A stretch of 64,000 bases of DNA from Aureispira sp. CCB-QB1 (GTDB lineage Bacteria; Bacteroidota; Bacteroidia; Chitinophagales; Saprospiraceae). Numbering within the stretch: the first letter of the stretch is position 1; every line of letters begins with the position of its first letter. The notes beneath the pieces were generated by a model. It saw nothing but the letters and a program-made list of their open reading frames with translations. It was not told where the DNA came from and searched no databases. Below, piece by piece: positions 8,686 through 40,555 of this stretch. Where the stretch lies: assembly GCA_945870185.1 (NCBI GenBank), contig CAMBRK010000019.1, positions 1-64,000 of the forward strand, read 5' to 3'. The position numbers were made by a program, and so were the translations under genes.

Positions 8686-9147
8686 ATGGGATTAGTATAT
8701 GCAGATATAGAATTGATTAATGGTGGTGATTTAGAAATGGTGCGTCGTCATTTGATGGATAAAGACGAAGTCAAAAGAATGACCATCAATTTTCTAGTTG
8801 ATTCTGGAGCTTACAATCTTTGCATCAATGAAGTGATCCAAGAACAATTGCAGTTTCCTATAGTAGAAAGGAGAAAAGCACAGTTGGCTAATGGTTCAAT
8901 AGAAGAATACGATGTAGCTGGAAATGTAGAGGTGCGCTTTGGAAACAGAGCTACCACTTGCAGAGCTATGGTACTACCTGGCGATTCTGAGCCACTTTTT
9001 GGAGCGATCCCTTTGGAAGATATGGATCTGATTATCCATCCACAAAGGCAAGAATTATTGGTCAATCCTGAACACCCATATTTTGCCCAAATGACTCTGA
9101 AGGGAATCCGGCAGGCTACTTTTAAAAATTTTAGGAAAAAGGATTAA
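8686..9147 (+). CDS. Clan AA (retropepsin-like) aspartic protease
   Basis: A 153-residue single-domain protein with the retropepsin active-site motif FLVDSGAYN (Asp-Ser-Gly-Ala) at about residue 45, followed by a second hydrophobic/Gly pattern (LFGAIPLEDMDLIIHP) that corresponds to the family's second psi-loop. It has no signal peptide. Such small clan AA proteases act as homodimers and are common as free-standing genes in Bacteroidota and cyanobacteria; their substrates are mostly unknown. It is monocistronic and stops 33 bp before the aromatic operon promoter. Confidence 0.82.
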   Translation: MGLVYADIELINGGDLEMVRRHLMDKDEVKRMTINFLVDSGAYNLCINEVIQEQLQFPIVERRKAQLANGSIEEYDVAGNVEVRFGNRATTCRAMVLPGDSEPLFGAIPLEDMDLIIHPQRQELLVNPEHPYFAQMTLKGIRQATFKNFRKKD

Positions 9148-9180
9148 TAACGTTAATATCTTAATTTTTCTTCAAAAAAT

Positions 9181-9211
9181 TTTGTGATTTTGATTTTTAC
9201 ACATATGTTTG
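9181..9211 (+). promoter_or_regulatory. Promoter of the aromatic amino-acid operon
   Basis: TTTG at 9181-9184, a 19-bp spacer, then TATGTTTG at 9204-9211. This is a full match to the Bacteroidota -33/-7 pattern TTTG-N19-TAnnTTTG. The expected start of transcription falls within a few bases of the leader-peptide ATG at 9216, so the leader mRNA would have almost no 5' untranslated region. Confidence 0.75.
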
Positions 9212-9215
9212 CATC

Positions 9216-9284
9216 ATGAGAAGTTTTCATTCCACATCTACCGCCTTTTATTTTTGGTACTTTTACTTTAGCGAGTTGGGGTAG
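9216..9284 (+). CDS. Aromatic-rich leader peptide (attenuator)
   Basis: A 22-codon open frame beginning MRSFHSTSTA and ending SELG. Between them are eight consecutive aromatic codons reading FYFWYFYF (9246-9269): four Phe, three Tyr, one Trp. Such a run is a classical sensor of charged aromatic tRNAs. It lies just downstream of the promoter and is followed by a terminator hairpin before pheA. By analogy with pheL and trpL, ribosome stalling here would decide between termination and read-through into pheA-aminotransferase-tyrA-DAHP synthase. I could not identify a convincing antiterminator by eye; CTTTTA at 9245-9250 and at 9260-9265 could pair with TAAAAG of the terminator arm. Confidence 0.85.
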   Translation: MRSFHSTSTAFYFWYFYFSELG

Positions 9285-9317
9285 CAGGGCTTTATACGTA
9301 AGTGTGTCATTATATAT

Positions 9318-9353
9318 AAAAGGAGTTCTGTTACAAAAACAGGCTCCTTTTTT
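9318..9353 (+). terminator. Attenuator terminator upstream of pheA
   Basis: AAAAGGAG, a bulged T, then TCTGTT pairs with AACAGGCTCCTTTT around a five-base loop, followed by more T residues. Position, between the leader peptide and pheA within one promoter-driven unit, makes this a regulated rather than a plain terminator. Confidence 0.8.
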
Positions 9354-9382
9354 GTTTTATAGCTTTTTGTAAAATTAATTGG

Positions 9383-10252
9383 ATGAGCGAACAAGTATTA
9401 AGAGTGGCCATACAAGGATATCCGGGATCGTTTCACGATGTTGCTGCCAAAACCTATTGGCCACATACAAAATTGGAACTTATACCTGCGGATTCTTTTG
9501 ATATATTGGCGAGGCTATTGGTCGAAAATAAGGCTGATGTAGCTGTCATGGCCATCGAAAACTCCATAGCAGGTACTATTTTGCAAAACTATAGAATTCT
9601 GCGAGAGAATGGATTTTGGGTGAGTGGTGAGTTATATTTACGTATCAAACATCAGCTTCTTGGTGTCAAAGGTGCTTCTCTTGAAGGCATAAAACAAGTA
9701 TCTTCGCATCCTATGGCTATCAATCAATGCCGTAGTTTTTTGGGTAAATATTCTCATTGGAAACTTATAGAATCAGAAGATACCGCTTTAAGCGCTGATA
9801 GGGTAGCGCAATTGGGCAAAAAATCCAAAGCTTGTATTGCCAGTGCTGAGGCTGCTTCCATCTATAATTTGGATATCTTGAGTCAAAACATTGAAACTAA
9901 CAAAACGAACTATACCCGTTTTTTTATAGTCAATAAAGCCCAAACTGAAGTAGCCAAAAACGCAAACAAAGCTTCAGTTTACATCAGAATTCCAGATAAA
10001 AAAAGTCAGTTGCTCAGAGTCTTACAAGTCATCAACGATCATGACCTGAATATGAGTAAGCTGCAATCATTTCCTGTGATTGGTAGTCTCAGGGAGTATT
10101 TTTTTCATTTGGACATAGAGTTTGATCATATATATCAGTATCATGGTTTAAAAGATGACCTTCTCGAGCTTACTTTTGAGTATGATGAAACTGGGATTTA
10201 CCAAAGGGCAGACTTGTCCGAAATCATTGATGAACACAAAGTAAATCTTTAA
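9383..10252 (+). CDS. pheA: Prephenate dehydratase
   Basis: Converts prephenate to phenylpyruvate in phenylalanine synthesis. Motifs: QGYPGSFHDVAA at the N-terminus, AIENSIAGT (58-65), SHPMAINQC (108 onward), and NYTRF at 176-180 containing the catalytic Thr-Arg-Phe. An ACT domain follows from about residue 200, with SFPVIGSLREYFFHLD in place of the usual ESRP-type Phe-binding motif. It lacks the chorismate mutase domain found in enteric PheA; that activity is instead on the last enzyme of this operon. First structural gene of the operon, 98 bp after the leader-peptide stop. Confidence 0.95.
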   Translation: MSEQVLRVAIQGYPGSFHDVAAKTYWPHTKLELIPADSFDILARLLVENKADVAVMAIENSIAGTILQNYRILRENGFWVSGELYLRIKHQLLGVKGASLEGIKQVSSHPMAINQCRSFLGKYSHWKLIESEDTALSADRVAQLGKKSKACIASAEAASIYNLDILSQNIETNKTNYTRFFIVNKAQTEVAKNANKASVYIRIPDKKSQLLRVLQVINDHDLNMSKLQSFPVIGSLREYFFHLDIEFDHIYQYHGLKDDLLELTFEYDETGIYQRADLSEIIDEHKVNL

Positions 10253-10257
10253 ATCAT

Positions 10258-11436
10258 ATGATAATATCAGCATCCAATAGATTGAAAGGTGTAACAACTT
10301 ACTATTTCGCAAGAAAATTGGCCGAGATCGACCAAATGAATAAGGACGGTCAAGCTGAGGTGATCAATTTGGGTATTGGTAGTCCAGATTTAAGTCCGCC
10401 TAATGTAGTTATGGACAAGCTCAAGTCTGCTATGGGTGCTCATGACGCCCACAAATATCAATCCTATAAAGGAATTGCCACTTTGAGAAATGCTTTTTCT
10501 AATTGGTATCAAAGATATTTTGATGTTGTCGTGGATCCAAATATTGATATTTTACCTTTGATCGGTTCTAAAGAAGGTGTGATGCACATCAGCATGTCTT
10601 TTTTAAACCCTGGAGATCAAGTTTTGGTGCCGGATCCAGGTTATCCTTCTTACAGTATGTGTACTTCTTTAGCTGGTGGTATTCCTATAGCTATGCCGCT
10701 CATAGAATCTTTTGGATGGAAGCCTGATTTGGGAGCTTTGGAAAAGATGGATTTGTCTAAGGTGAAACTCATGTGGCTCAACTATCCCAATATGCCCACA
10801 GGTGCTAAAGCTGATCTCGCATTTTTTAATGAAGTTGTAGCTTTTGCTAAAAAGCACCAAATCCTGGTTTGTCATGATAATCCTTATGCATTCATTTTGA
10901 ATGATCACGCAATTTCTATTTTAAAAGCTGATGGAGCAACGGATTGCTGTATAGAGTTAGTTTCATTAAGCAAATGTTACAACATGGCTGGATGGAGAGT
11001 TGGTGCTGTAGTCGGAGCAAAGTCATACATTGACACCATCATGACTTTCAAAAGCAATATGGACTCTGGTATGTTTAAACCAATACAAGAGGCAGCAGCT
11101 ATTGCTTTGAATTTAGGTCAGGAGTGGATCGACTCGCTCAATGCTGAGTATGGACTTAGAAAACAAGCAGCTATCGAGATCATGGAAACATTGAGTTTGG
11201 AATGTGATAAAGAAGGAGCAGGTCTTTTTGTATGGGGAAAGATTAAAGATGAAAGTCAGGATAGCGAAACATTTTCTAATCAAATTCTGAACAAATCAAG
11301 AGTGTTTATCACTCCCGGACATATTTTTGGCAAACAAGGGAATCAATATCTGAGGATTTCGCTGTGTAGTCCGGTATCAGACATGGTTGCAGCACTTTAC
11401 AGAATCAAAACGGGATACCAATCTTCAAATAGTTAA
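10258..11436 (+). CDS. Class I/II aminotransferase (aromatic or aspartate type)
   Basis: A PLP-dependent fold-type I aminotransferase of 392 residues. Visible motifs are the NYPNMPTG segment (175-182), the cofactor Asp-x-x-Tyr region CHDNPYAF, and the Schiff-base Lys239 in SLSKCYNMAGWRVGA. YLRISLC near residue 375 provides the substrate-carboxylate Arg. It starts 5 bp after pheA and lies just before tyrA, so it most likely converts phenylpyruvate and hydroxyphenylpyruvate to Phe and Tyr. The specificity is inferred from the operon. Confidence 0.9.
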   Translation: MIISASNRLKGVTTYYFARKLAEIDQMNKDGQAEVINLGIGSPDLSPPNVVMDKLKSAMGAHDAHKYQSYKGIATLRNAFSNWYQRYFDVVVDPNIDILPLIGSKEGVMHISMSFLNPGDQVLVPDPGYPSYSMCTSLAGGIPIAMPLIESFGWKPDLGALEKMDLSKVKLMWLNYPNMPTGAKADLAFFNEVVAFAKKHQILVCHDNPYAFILNDHAISILKADGATDCCIELVSLSKCYNMAGWRVGAVVGAKSYIDTIMTFKSNMDSGMFKPIQEAAAIALNLGQEWIDSLNAEYGLRKQAAIEIMETLSLECDKEGAGLFVWGKIKDESQDSETFSNQILNKSRVFITPGHIFGKQGNQYLRISLCSPVSDMVAALYRIKTGYQSSNS

Positions 11437-11437
11437 T

Positions 11438-12277
11438 ATGAACATAGCAATAATAGGTTTGGGACTTATAGGTGGATCAATAGCTAAAGATCTGAGCTCG
11501 CAACTCAATGTTCATGTCATAGGTGTTGATCTTAATGAATTGCACCAAAAACAGGCGTTGGAGTTAGGTTTAGTACATCGGTTAATGGATTTGGATGAAG
11601 CCATTTCTGCTTGTAAAATAATTATAATAGCGGTTCCCGTAGATAAGATAGAGCAACTATTACCTACAGTATTGACTAAAATAGATGATGATGTCACCGC
11701 AATAGACGTGGGCTCTACCAAAGCTGAGATATGCAGAATCATCAGCAATCACCCAAAAAGAAATCGATTTGTGGCATCGCATCCGTTGGCCGGGACGGAG
11801 TTTTCAGGTACTATGGCTGCTCTGAAAGGATTGTTTCAGGGAAAAAAGAATATCATTTGTGAAAGCGAAAAAACAGATGTAGATGCTCTCGAGATTTCGC
11901 TAAAAATTTTTGAAAGTTTGGGATTGACCACAAGTTTTATGTCAGCAGAAGAACATGATAAACATTTGGCCTATGTATCTCATTTGTCGCATGTGAGTTC
12001 TTTTATGCTGGGTCTTACGGTCTTGGATATAGAGCAGGATGAAAAACAAATCTTTGAGCTTGCAGGTACAGGTTTTGCAAGTACGGTACGACTTGCTAAA
12101 AGCAATCCCAAAACCTGGTCAGCTATTTTTGATAAAAACAAAACCTATGTTTTGGAAGCATTGGATAGTTATATTTTACATTTGCAGCACTTCAGGGATC
12201 ATATAGCCGCACAGGACACTAGTGCCACTGAACAGTTAATGGCCAGGAGCAATGAAATAAAAAGAATATTAAAATAA
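11438..12277 (+). CDS. tyrA: Prephenate dehydrogenase
   Basis: NAD(P)-dependent oxidative decarboxylation of prephenate to hydroxyphenylpyruvate. The N-terminal Rossmann motif MNIAIIGLGLIGGS (GxGxxG) is intact. DVGSTKAEI and ASHPLAGTEFSG carry the conserved substrate residues, including the catalytic-region His. HDKHLAYVSHLSH in the C-terminal helical domain is another signature. The length is 279 residues from the ATG at 11438, one base after the aminotransferase stop; an upstream TTG frame is rejected because it precedes the Rossmann start. No ACT domain is present. Confidence 0.95.
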   Translation: MNIAIIGLGLIGGSIAKDLSSQLNVHVIGVDLNELHQKQALELGLVHRLMDLDEAISACKIIIIAVPVDKIEQLLPTVLTKIDDDVTAIDVGSTKAEICRIISNHPKRNRFVASHPLAGTEFSGTMAALKGLFQGKKNIICESEKTDVDALEISLKIFESLGLTTSFMSAEEHDKHLAYVSHLSHVSSFMLGLTVLDIEQDEKQIFELAGTGFASTVRLAKSNPKTWSAIFDKNKTYVLEALDSYILHLQHFRDHIAAQDTSATEQLMARSNEIKRILK

Positions 12278-12312: not shown

Positions 12313-13374
12313 ATGAACTGGATCAATAATGGCAAAAAACCAGTCCTCATAGCAGGACCTTGTAGTGCAGAGACGGAAGAACAAGTAATCCAAACTGCCA
12401 ACAGACTTTTTCGTACGGGCAAAGTAGATGTATTGCGTGCAGGTATCTGGAAGCCACGGACTAGACCTGGGGCCTTTGAAGGTATAGGCACAAAGGGACT
12501 ACCTTGGTTACAAAAGGCCAAGGAACTCACGGGGCTACCTGTGGCAGTAGAAGTAGCCAAAGCCTCGCATGTAGAACTTTGCCTGGAGTTTGGTATAGAC
12601 ATTCTTTGGATAGGTGCACGAACTACGGTCAATCCATTTGCAGTACAGGAGATTGCGGACGCGCTCAAGGGCACAGACAAACCGGTACTTTTAAAAAATC
12701 CCATAAACCCTGATCTTGACCTTTGGTTGGGTGGTATGGAGAGACTTCAGAATGCAGGACTTACCAAACTTGGAGCTATTCACCGGGGATTTTCATTTGC
12801 TGGAGAAAAAATCTATAGAAACAGACCTCAATGGCAGATCGCCATTGATTTTAAAACAGAAATGCCAAATATGATGATGATTAATGATCCAAGCCATATC
12901 TGCGGTAGGAGAGACCTACTCCAGAAAGTAGCGCAGAAGGCCATGGATCTCAATTTTGATGGCCTGATCATAGAGTCTCATATCAATCCAGATGCGGCTT
13001 GGAGTGATGCAGCCCAGCAAATTACACCTGAGGTTTATGGACAATTGATAGCTGATCTGATCATTAGAGATATTGATCCCAAAGATCTTAAAGAAAGAAC
13101 CAAGCTTGATATTCTCCGTAAGGAAATAGATATCCTGGACGATGAAATCATGAATGTACTAGCTTCGAGAATGAAAGTAGCTAGAGACATAGGTAAATAC
13201 AAAAAGGAAAACAATATGACCATCTTACAGACAGATAGGTGGCAAGAAATACTACATAAGTTTGTAGAGCGAGGCCTTCAAAATGGCTTGACGGAAGAGT
13301 TTATCACCCGTGTTATCAAGTCTATCCATGATGAGAGTATAGGACAGCAGGAGAAAGTAATGACCAGTGAATAA
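12313..13374 (+). CDS. Bifunctional DAHP synthase / chorismate mutase
   Basis: Residues about 1-255 are a type I-beta 3-deoxy-7-phosphoheptulonate synthase: GPCSAETEEQ, AGIWKPRTRPGAFEG, WIGARTTVNPF, LLKNPINPD, the Cys and His metal ligands in DPSHICGRRD, and the downstream Glu in IIESHINPD. Residues about 262-353 are an AroQ-type chorismate mutase (LDILRKEIDILDDEIMNVLASRM, KVARDIGKYKKEN). The enzyme thus carries both the entry step of the shikimate pathway and the committed Phe/Tyr branch step, which suits feedback and attenuation control in this operon. It is the last gene of the operon. Confidence 0.94.
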   Translation: MNWINNGKKPVLIAGPCSAETEEQVIQTANRLFRTGKVDVLRAGIWKPRTRPGAFEGIGTKGLPWLQKAKELTGLPVAVEVAKASHVELCLEFGIDILWIGARTTVNPFAVQEIADALKGTDKPVLLKNPINPDLDLWLGGMERLQNAGLTKLGAIHRGFSFAGEKIYRNRPQWQIAIDFKTEMPNMMMINDPSHICGRRDLLQKVAQKAMDLNFDGLIIESHINPDAAWSDAAQQITPEVYGQLIADLIIRDIDPKDLKERTKLDILRKEIDILDDEIMNVLASRMKVARDIGKYKKENNMTILQTDRWQEILHKFVERGLQNGLTEEFITRVIKSIHDESIGQQEKVMTSE

Positions 13375-39583: not shown

Positions 39584-40555
39584 ATGAGTTGGATAGAGCA
39601 GATGAATACTTATGGAAAGGAAGGCATGCCTTTCATTTTTATAATTGATTTTGAGCTAAAGTCACCACAAATCATTCCTTTGCATATATTGGATAAAGAT
39701 ATTTTGTTTAAGGTAAATCAACATAAAAACTATGATTTGCAAGGACACAAATCCACACCATTATCTTTTGTTCCAAAACCAATTGCTTTCGAGGAAGTAT
39801 TTGAAAAATCATTTCAGGGTGCTCAGAAAGAAATATTTTATGGTAATTCGTTTTTGTTAAATCTGACTTTTCCTACAGAAATCAAAACTAACTATTCCCT
39901 TAAGGAGCTCTTTGAAGTATCTTTGGCAAAATATAAGCTGTATTACAAAGATCAATTTATAGTGTCATCTCCAGAAATATTTGTGCAGATTCAGGATGGA
40001 AAAATATTTACTTTTCCCATGAAAGGTACCATAGATGCTTCTATCCCCAATGCAAGAGATATCATTCTTTCTGACTTCAAAGAAACAGCTGAGCATTACA
40101 CCATTGTAGACCTGTTGCGTAATGACTTAAGTATAGTGGCAAAAAATGTACGTGTAAACCGATTTAGATATATAGATGTGCTCAAGACCAATGCCAAAAC
40201 TTTGCTGCAAGTGAGTTCGGAAATAGAAGGAACCTTACCTGCTGATTATAAGTCAAAGCTAGGTGATATTTTTCAAGCTTTGGTGCCTGCGGGCTCTATA
40301 TCCGGAGCGCCTAAGAAAAAGACGGTGGAAATCATCAAAACATACGAACTCGATGACCGTGGATACTATACGGGTATCTTTGGTATTTTTGATGGCCAAA
40401 ATGTGGATTCAGGAGTGATGATCCGGTATATAGAAAAATCTGCTACAGGCTTGGTTTACAGAAGTGGTTGTGGTATAACGGCACTTAGCGATGCCCGATC
40501 AGAATATAAAGAAATGATAGATAAAGTCTATGTCCCTGCTGCTAGAAAGTATTAA
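39584..40555 (+). CDS. pabB: Aminodeoxychorismate synthase component I
   Basis: Chorismate-binding enzyme that makes 4-amino-4-deoxychorismate for folate. Diagnostic motifs: KGTIDAS, the Lys/Glu region ETAEHYTIVDLLRNDLS, the C-terminal LVPAGSISGAPKKKTVEIIKTYE, RGYYTGIFG, and RSGCGITALSDARSEYKEM. At 323 residues it is the short form without an extended N-terminal domain. The ATG at 39584 is chosen; a TTG at 39563 extends the frame by seven codons. It overlaps pabC by 26 bp. The glutaminase subunit PabA is not nearby. An anthranilate synthase identity is less likely given the pabC neighbour. Confidence 0.9.
   Translation: MSWIEQMNTYGKEGMPFIFIIDFELKSPQIIPLHILDKDILFKVNQHKNYDLQGHKSTPLSFVPKPIAFEEVFEKSFQGAQKEIFYGNSFLLNLTFPTEIKTNYSLKELFEVSLAKYKLYYKDQFIVSSPEIFVQIQDGKIFTFPMKGTIDASIPNARDIILSDFKETAEHYTIVDLLRNDLSIVAKNVRVNRFRYIDVLKTNAKTLLQVSSEIEGTLPADYKSKLGDIFQALVPAGSISGAPKKKTVEIIKTYELDDRGYYTGIFGIFDGQNVDSGVMIRYIEKSATGLVYRSGCGITALSDARSEYKEMIDKVYVPAARKY

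Follow-up and report, generated by a model that had tools for sequence, protein, structure and literature searches.

A predicted phenylalanine/tyrosine leader-peptide attenuator upstream of pheA in Aureispira sp. CCB-QB1, with tandem leaders in some of its relatives

The window analysed here, a stretch of 64,000 nt from one contig of Aureispira sp. CCB-QB1, carries a short open reading frame (ORF) rich in aromatic codons upstream of pheA. This raises the question of whether the ORF is the leader of a ribosome-mediated attenuator and, if so, which amino acids are sensed. All elements lie on the + strand in the order promoter, leader ORF, terminator, pheA, aminotransferase, tyrA and DAHP synthase/chorismate mutase, and the sequence agrees with an earlier note on this DNA, in which a promoter, a 22-codon frame with FYFWYFYF, a bulged hairpin with a T tract, and pheA with three further genes had been described. 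The leader ORF (MRSFHSTSTAFYFWYFYFSELG and a stop; 22 codons, 9216-9284, with TAG at 9282-9284) contains the eight consecutive aromatic codons at 9246-9269, which are the proposed stalling site. An intrinsic terminator hairpin is predicted at 9318-9351, with a 5' arm at 9318-9332, a one-base bulge, a 3' arm at 9338-9351 and a T tract at 9348-9353. The operon that follows comprises pheA, encoding prephenate dehydratase (9383-10252; NCBIfam match below the curated cut-offs), a PLP-dependent aminotransferase gene (10258-11436; NCBIfam match below the curated cut-off), tyrA, encoding prephenate dehydrogenase (11438-12277; NCBIfam NF006307, above cut-off), and a gene for a DAHP synthase/chorismate mutase fusion (12313-13374; both NCBIfam domains below cut-off). 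The listed ORF of tyrA starts at TTG 11387, and ATG 11438 is the likely start. Judged by these profiles, the genes downstream of the leader make the amino acids proposed as sensed.

Comparison of the region upstream of pheA among relatives was made with a strict rule, by which a leader is an ORF of at most 45 aa with at least six F, Y or W inside eight residues. Upstream sequences were drawn from the family, where 71 of 138 PheA-matching genomes were used (the window's own genome counted), from a phylum sample of 258 genomes with a match (29 loci besides the window's own, plus 20 chosen loci) and from 80 of 587 named loci; among the 29 phylum loci, two repeat family loci and one is a family genome counted in the 71. 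Removal of sequences sharing a 60-mer reduced 199 upstreams to 185, among which near-identical species may remain. A strict Phe/Tyr-rich leader ORF precedes pheA in 160 of these 185 non-redundant loci, as a single ORF in 129 and as a clear pair in 31. The upstreams contain 193 leader-like ORFs per 92,043 strand-bases, as against 18 per 874,605 strand-bases elsewhere in these loci (both strands), which is about 100 times the density of a control 9.5 times larger. The antisense strand of the same upstreams yielded one leader-like ORF, and dinucleotide shuffles (20 per locus) a mean of 2.95. Uninterrupted runs, aromatic in eight of eight residues, were found 45 times upstream of pheA and not at all in the control or the antisense strand (0.0 in shuffles).

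The codons of these leaders behave as those of a translated frame would. Within the eight-residue aromatic stretches, aromatic codons number 1355 in frame versus 427 and 424 in the two alternative frames, the in-frame count being inflated by the leader selection rule; the mixture of third bases is unaffected by it (TTT 529, TTC 232, TAT 303, TAC 244, TGG 47). In L121, one of the two relatives closest to the window by PheA, the run FYFWYFYF is identical and differs by two synonymous changes only (TAC/TAT and TTT/TTC), while codons neighbouring the run differ. The run is free of frame-breaking change in this comparison, as the earlier note required of a genuine leader. Among the leaders at large the order of residues in the run varies and the Phe/Tyr content is kept. 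This frame-specific conservation of codons suggests that the leader is translated.

The way in which a ribosome might load on this leader is suggested by the promoter. The promoter is of Bacteroidota type: a TTTG element (-33; 9181-9184) lies exactly 19 nt ahead of a -7 box, TATGTTTG (9204-9211; consensus TAnnTTTG), and the box ends 4 nt ahead of the leader ATG, as it also does in L121. In Flavobacterium psychrophilum, which is reported to lack Shine-Dalgarno sequences, the TAnnTTTG box occupies -12 to -5 (PMC9723704). If this spacing is applied to the window, the predicted transcription start falls at 9216, the first base of the leader's start codon. Between this codon and the aromatic run the frame contains no further ATG, GTG or TTG, and the leader is therefore predicted to be leaderless, with the transcript starting at its first codon. 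A promoter-like site within 60 nt of the start codon was found for just 88 of the 160 first leaders, with 1.44 expected in shuffles; in 43 of these 88 the distance from the end of the box to the start codon is 4-11 nt, and in 45 it is at least 16 nt. A simple consensus scan, whose models are E. coli-type promoters and simple stems, returned no + strand promoter-like and no terminator-like site.

The amino acids to which such a leader would respond have to be judged from its codons. The earlier note had Phe, Tyr and Trp sensed together. The first two indeed dominate, with F 761 and Y 547 of the 1544 residues in the aromatic stretches, and the third was overstated, as W accounts for 47 residues and Trp is present in just 62 of 193 leaders and absent from 131, the window leader having one Trp codon. 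Phe and Tyr codons were thus found to be conserved, and Trp codons were not conserved with them. The Trp codon in mid-run might still make the same attenuator a true triple sensor, given that the DAHP synthase of the operon feeds all three pathways. The Trp codon is kept in L121, and Trp is found in 17 of 35 leaders near the window (30 family loci and six named relatives), several of which have a YFWFYF core. Against these points stand not only the overall rarity of Trp but also the trpE-like gene of this same genome, which has a leader of its own, MIFNNTNWWWHIQSFRPGS (WWW; L201, positions 1315-1374 of G000:C14). That gene scores 415.8 bits with TIGR00564, which is under the curated threshold (517.7), and the Bacteroid-trp model over its leader scores 37.4 bits, the gathering score being 49. 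In addition, the Phe-Tyr-Phe leader AroR of Corynebacterium glutamicum is reported to respond to limitation of Phe and not of Tyr (PMC11802643), so that the codons of a leader do not by themselves establish what it senses. The triple sensor is accordingly a doubtful alternative, well behind Phe and Tyr as the inputs. Because Trp is rare among the leaders and the trpE-like gene has its own, the pheA device is called here a Phe/Tyr attenuator; a shortage of Trp may add a minor input by way of its one Trp codon. As a separate observation, a second, partial match to the trpE model (119 bits) is present in the window at 39953-40528, and its product is probably a related chorismate-using enzyme.

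The switch itself was sought in the RNA that a stalled ribosome would leave free. In the earlier note, CTTTTA at 9245-9250 and 9260-9265 was proposed to pair with TAAAAG in the terminator as the antiterminator. This pairing was rejected, as folds of the RNA freed by a stalled ribosome give instead a strand at 9281-9292, overlapping the leader stop codon, paired with 9323-9334, a segment common to the 5' arm and loop of the terminator. The predicted duplex has 12 bp, and the four G-U pairs in it count against it. If a ribosome is stalled in the run, the exposed RNA (9263-9334) adopts the antiterminator fold (-15.3 kcal/mol), and 9263-9353, in which the whole hairpin has been made, still prefers it (-23.2 kcal/mol). 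For a ribosome that has reached the stop codon, 9296-9353 is predicted to fold as the terminator (-16.0 kcal/mol), and the whole untranslated leader also folds with the terminator formed (-32.6 kcal/mol).

Comparison supports this arrangement. A terminator was assigned downstream of 174 of the 193 leaders, and 173 of these entered duplex tests. Duplexes between each leader's own antiterminator strand and terminator arm sum to -2476 kcal/mol, as against a mean of -1608 kcal/mol (sd 35.7, minimum -1706) when arms were permuted among loci 300 times, a procedure that treats loci as independent and ignores their relatedness. In 168 of 173 cases a strand pairs better with its own terminator arm than, on average, with the arms of other loci, and the converse holds in 166 of 173. 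Among the 165 leaders whose duplex reaches -9 or better, antiterminator and terminator have at least five positions in common in 164, and these 164 leaders contain 134 distinct shared cores, which argues that the two structures compete and change together. On fold energies and covariation, the predicted antiterminator and terminator of the window are mutually exclusive. A ribosome that has come to the stop codon would cover part of the strand in 157 of 165 leaders. The strand starts 9-12 nt (quartiles) past the last aromatic codon. The strand lies 5-16 nt after the run in 162 of 173 own versus 1238 of 1730 mismatched pairings; the mismatched pairings thus show a similar, if broader, preference, and geometry alone is weak evidence. 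The observation that the strand is free with the first aromatic codon in the A site (165/165) is nearly guaranteed by the search region and was not counted.

These results also bear on two explanations that dispense with a functional leader peptide. In one, the hairpin is the terminator of the upstream gene at 8686-9147, with pheA constitutive and the leader ORF incidental. That gene is indeed co-oriented and ends at 9147, but promoter and leader stand between it and the hairpin, and the combination of leader, terminator and covarying antiterminator recurs before pheA in many loci, which leaves this explanation barely credible. In the other, a metabolite riboswitch, a T-box or a protein-binding leader would act without any translated leader. 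A terminator and an alternative fold do exist, as such a device would need; the frame-specific codon signal, however, implies translation, and Rfam gave no match in the window at the gathering threshold, so that any of these devices is extremely improbable. A permissive Rfam scan of 9100-9420 gave eight matches, all below their gathering scores, one of them to Bacteroid-trp on the minus strand (27.5 bits of 49). Identity of the pheA leader with an Rfam leader, Bacteroid-trp included, was rejected for want of a match at the gathering score. As a side observation, the product of the upstream gene at 8686-9147 is similar to aspartic proteases of clan AA, its TIGR03698 score of 55.6 bits narrowly missing the cut-off (57.35).

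Taken as a whole, the locus is very probably a ribosome-mediated attenuator, a proposal of the earlier note that is strongly supported by the comparison of leader ORFs, terminators and the covarying antiterminator. From sequence, it is predicted to sense charged tRNA-Phe and tRNA-Tyr and to control the pheA-aminotransferase-tyrA-DAHP synthase/chorismate mutase operon. Transcription would begin at or beside the leader ATG, and a ribosome would load on the leaderless end. When charged tRNA is ample, the ribosome would cross the eight aromatic codons to the stop at 9282-9284 and cover 9281-9292, leading to formation of the terminator at 9318-9351 and an end to transcription. When charged tRNA-Phe or tRNA-Tyr is scarce, the ribosome would stall within 9246-9269 and leave 9281-9292 free to pair with 9323-9334 before the 3' arm of the terminator exists, and RNA polymerase would then enter pheA. 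Should the leader not be translated, its RNA would fold with the terminator formed and the operon would be off.

The device is not universal among relatives. The expectation that homologous upstream regions carry aromatic runs held for the 160 loci and failed for others, including a close relative. With the class of named loci assigned from NCBI's Bacteroidota classes, a strict leader is present in 156 of 174 loci inside the window's class and in 4 of 11 outside it. The 25 loci without one comprise seven outside the class, five of family f5 and 13 others in the class, the latter being plain misses or weaker ORFs. Family f5 is probably Flavobacteriaceae, and its five loci have leaders of the RFYFSNSFYFFF type with a looser run, aromatic in five of eight residues, such as MSNNRFYFSNSFYFFFRK. 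The close relative, L003 (duplicate L122), has no aromatic leader in the 226 nt upstream of its pheA, a length sufficient for a leader at the window's spacing. Its PheA shares 64% with that of the window, equal to L121, and it is the other of the two closest relatives by PheA. This true miss, which counts against the model, indicates that in some close relatives the device has disappeared or changed its place. In the family search at E 1e-20, PheA went unmatched in two smaller genomes of the window's genus (G047 and G147, 3.2 Mb). Outside the class, L075, L077, L089 and L099 combine a fairly close PheA with an aromatic leader, which is missing from the seven other out-of-class loci; the four may have acquired operon and leader jointly by transfer.

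The window has one leader. In other loci two separate aromatic leaders stand in series before pheA. Two or more leader ORFs were found at 33 loci, and two of these were dropped, their ORFs overlapping or lying less than 40 nt apart, leaving 31 tandem loci of the 185 (L004, L005, L041-L043, L045, L048-L050, L052, L054, L055, L057, L058, L061, L062, L079, L083, L108, L135, L137, L140, L144, L149, L153, L158, L162, L168, L177, L189 and L198). Seventeen belong to the window's family and two to family f9 of the same class; the named loci are five Chitinophaga and five Hymenobacter species, one Bacteroidales and one Bacteroides record. The start codons of the two leaders are 124-216 nt apart, with 27 of the 31 spacings between 140 and 173 nt, and terminator and antiterminator were scored for both leaders in 23 of the 31. 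For 16 loci the upstream sequence covers 1500 nt, and no third leader with an ATG start was found in them. On a quick FastTree phylogeny of PheA (124 rows, 16 of them tandem; L011 was dropped as too short a protein) the tandem state needs six changes, and well-supported branches force at least four, so the tandem form has been gained or lost repeatedly.

Some of these relatives also raise the possibility of nascent-peptide arrest. In leaders of the TnaC type the peptide itself stalls the ribosome, and here too the peptide, and not a shortage of tRNA, would be the cause of stalling. A C-terminal Y-G-x-P before the stop, common to some relatives, could be read in this way, and leaders of L042, L045, L052 and L061 end in Y-G-x-P-stop or similar. 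In these four loci, however, a small hairpin spans the stop codon and sits just ahead of the antiterminator strand. The Y-G-x-P-stop codons form this hairpin (in the tandem loci L042, L045 and L052 their sequence is TATGGnnnCCATA or a variant of it), which suggests a constraint on RNA rather than on peptide. Moreover, the window leader has no such tail and ends in SELG, and the order of residues in the runs varies while their Phe/Tyr content does not. The arrest-peptide reading of these tails was dropped, and as an account of the window it is highly unlikely.

For the Phe/Tyr attenuator, the distribution points, with reasonable but not high confidence, to a widespread and probably old control of aromatic operons in Bacteroidia and relatives, which has been doubled in several lineages (the window's family, Chitinophaga, Hymenobacter and some Bacteroidales) into two complete attenuators for the same signal. 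If this is true, RNA polymerase would meet two separately translated checkpoints, and the response would be steeper or tighter than with one.

With regard to earlier work, Vitreschak 2004 on attenuation reportedly mentions Bacteroidetes. The suggestion of the earlier note that such a sensor in Bacteroidota would be worth documenting has to be qualified, as both attenuation and a pheA element had been flagged in F. psychrophilum (PMC9723704). According to that report, there are strong clues that leader peptides attenuate amino-acid operons, and pheA is preceded by a structured element that is conserved among the Flavobacteriaceae (PMC9723704). It thus concerns the same gene in the same phylum as the window; in the portions available it gives no leader sequence or antiterminator, and the overlap may be larger. 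In Bacteroides thetaiotaomicron, 5' UTRs with leader-like short ORFs have been reported, with no mention of pheA in the text available (PMC7366714). A literature search conducted mostly without subscription papers found, in the portions available, just the F. psychrophilum paper to tie Bacteroidota pheA to attenuation. Given this earlier flag, the window device joins a known class of leader-peptide attenuators, and the additions to prior knowledge are a resolved antiterminator, a wide distribution among the Bacteroidota sampled, and the tandem forms. The comparative support extends classical attenuation to a phylum in which the cited papers flag but do not resolve it, and the predicted pairing of 9281-9292 with 9323-9334 is concrete enough to be open to compensatory-mutation testing.

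Among known systems, E. coli pheA likewise has a leader peptide, PheL, and is regulated by charged tRNA-Phe (PMC11802643). E. coli pheA encodes chorismate mutase/prephenate dehydratase and the window pheA prephenate dehydratase; the window also differs from PheL in its mixed Phe/Tyr codons, its larger operon, an apparently leaderless transcript and the lack of an Rfam match at the gathering threshold. The aroR-aroF locus of C. glutamicum similarly places a leader peptide before an aromatic-pathway operon; it is actinobacterial, lies before DAHP synthase and has the Phe-only response noted above (PMC11802643). The uORFC-13-1 motif of Acholeplasma is a predicted uORF with Phe codons and a terminator before aroF and in this resembles the window, but phylum and gene are different, and it is described with at least one Phe codon and no Phe/Tyr run (PMC8632094). 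The Bacteroid-trp leader (RF01692) is, like the pheA leader, a Bacteroidota leader-peptide element, and it serves a neighbouring pathway; it has Trp codons, precedes trp genes and could not be matched acceptably to the pheA leader.

In trpL of Sinorhizobium meliloti and in leuL, trpL and ilvL of Streptomyces lividans the leader peptide is leaderless, the transcript starting at the ATG (PMC7298713, PMC8079986), as predicted for the window. These belong to other phyla and concern other amino acids, and the start in the window is a prediction from sequence. The predicted device is also relevant to the question of how bacteria that have no Shine-Dalgarno sites translate their leader peptides.

For the tandem relatives, though not for the window, the nearest parallel is the Salmonella mgtCBR leader, which has two leader ORFs in series and is called a singular example (PMC3641672). 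It senses two different signals, ATP and proline, and its stem-loops are described as unlike intrinsic terminators (PMC3641672). In the tandem pheA loci, by contrast, both ORFs are Phe/Tyr-rich, and an intrinsic terminator was scored for both in 23 of the 31. These relatives offer a natural comparison of one attenuator with two for the same signal.
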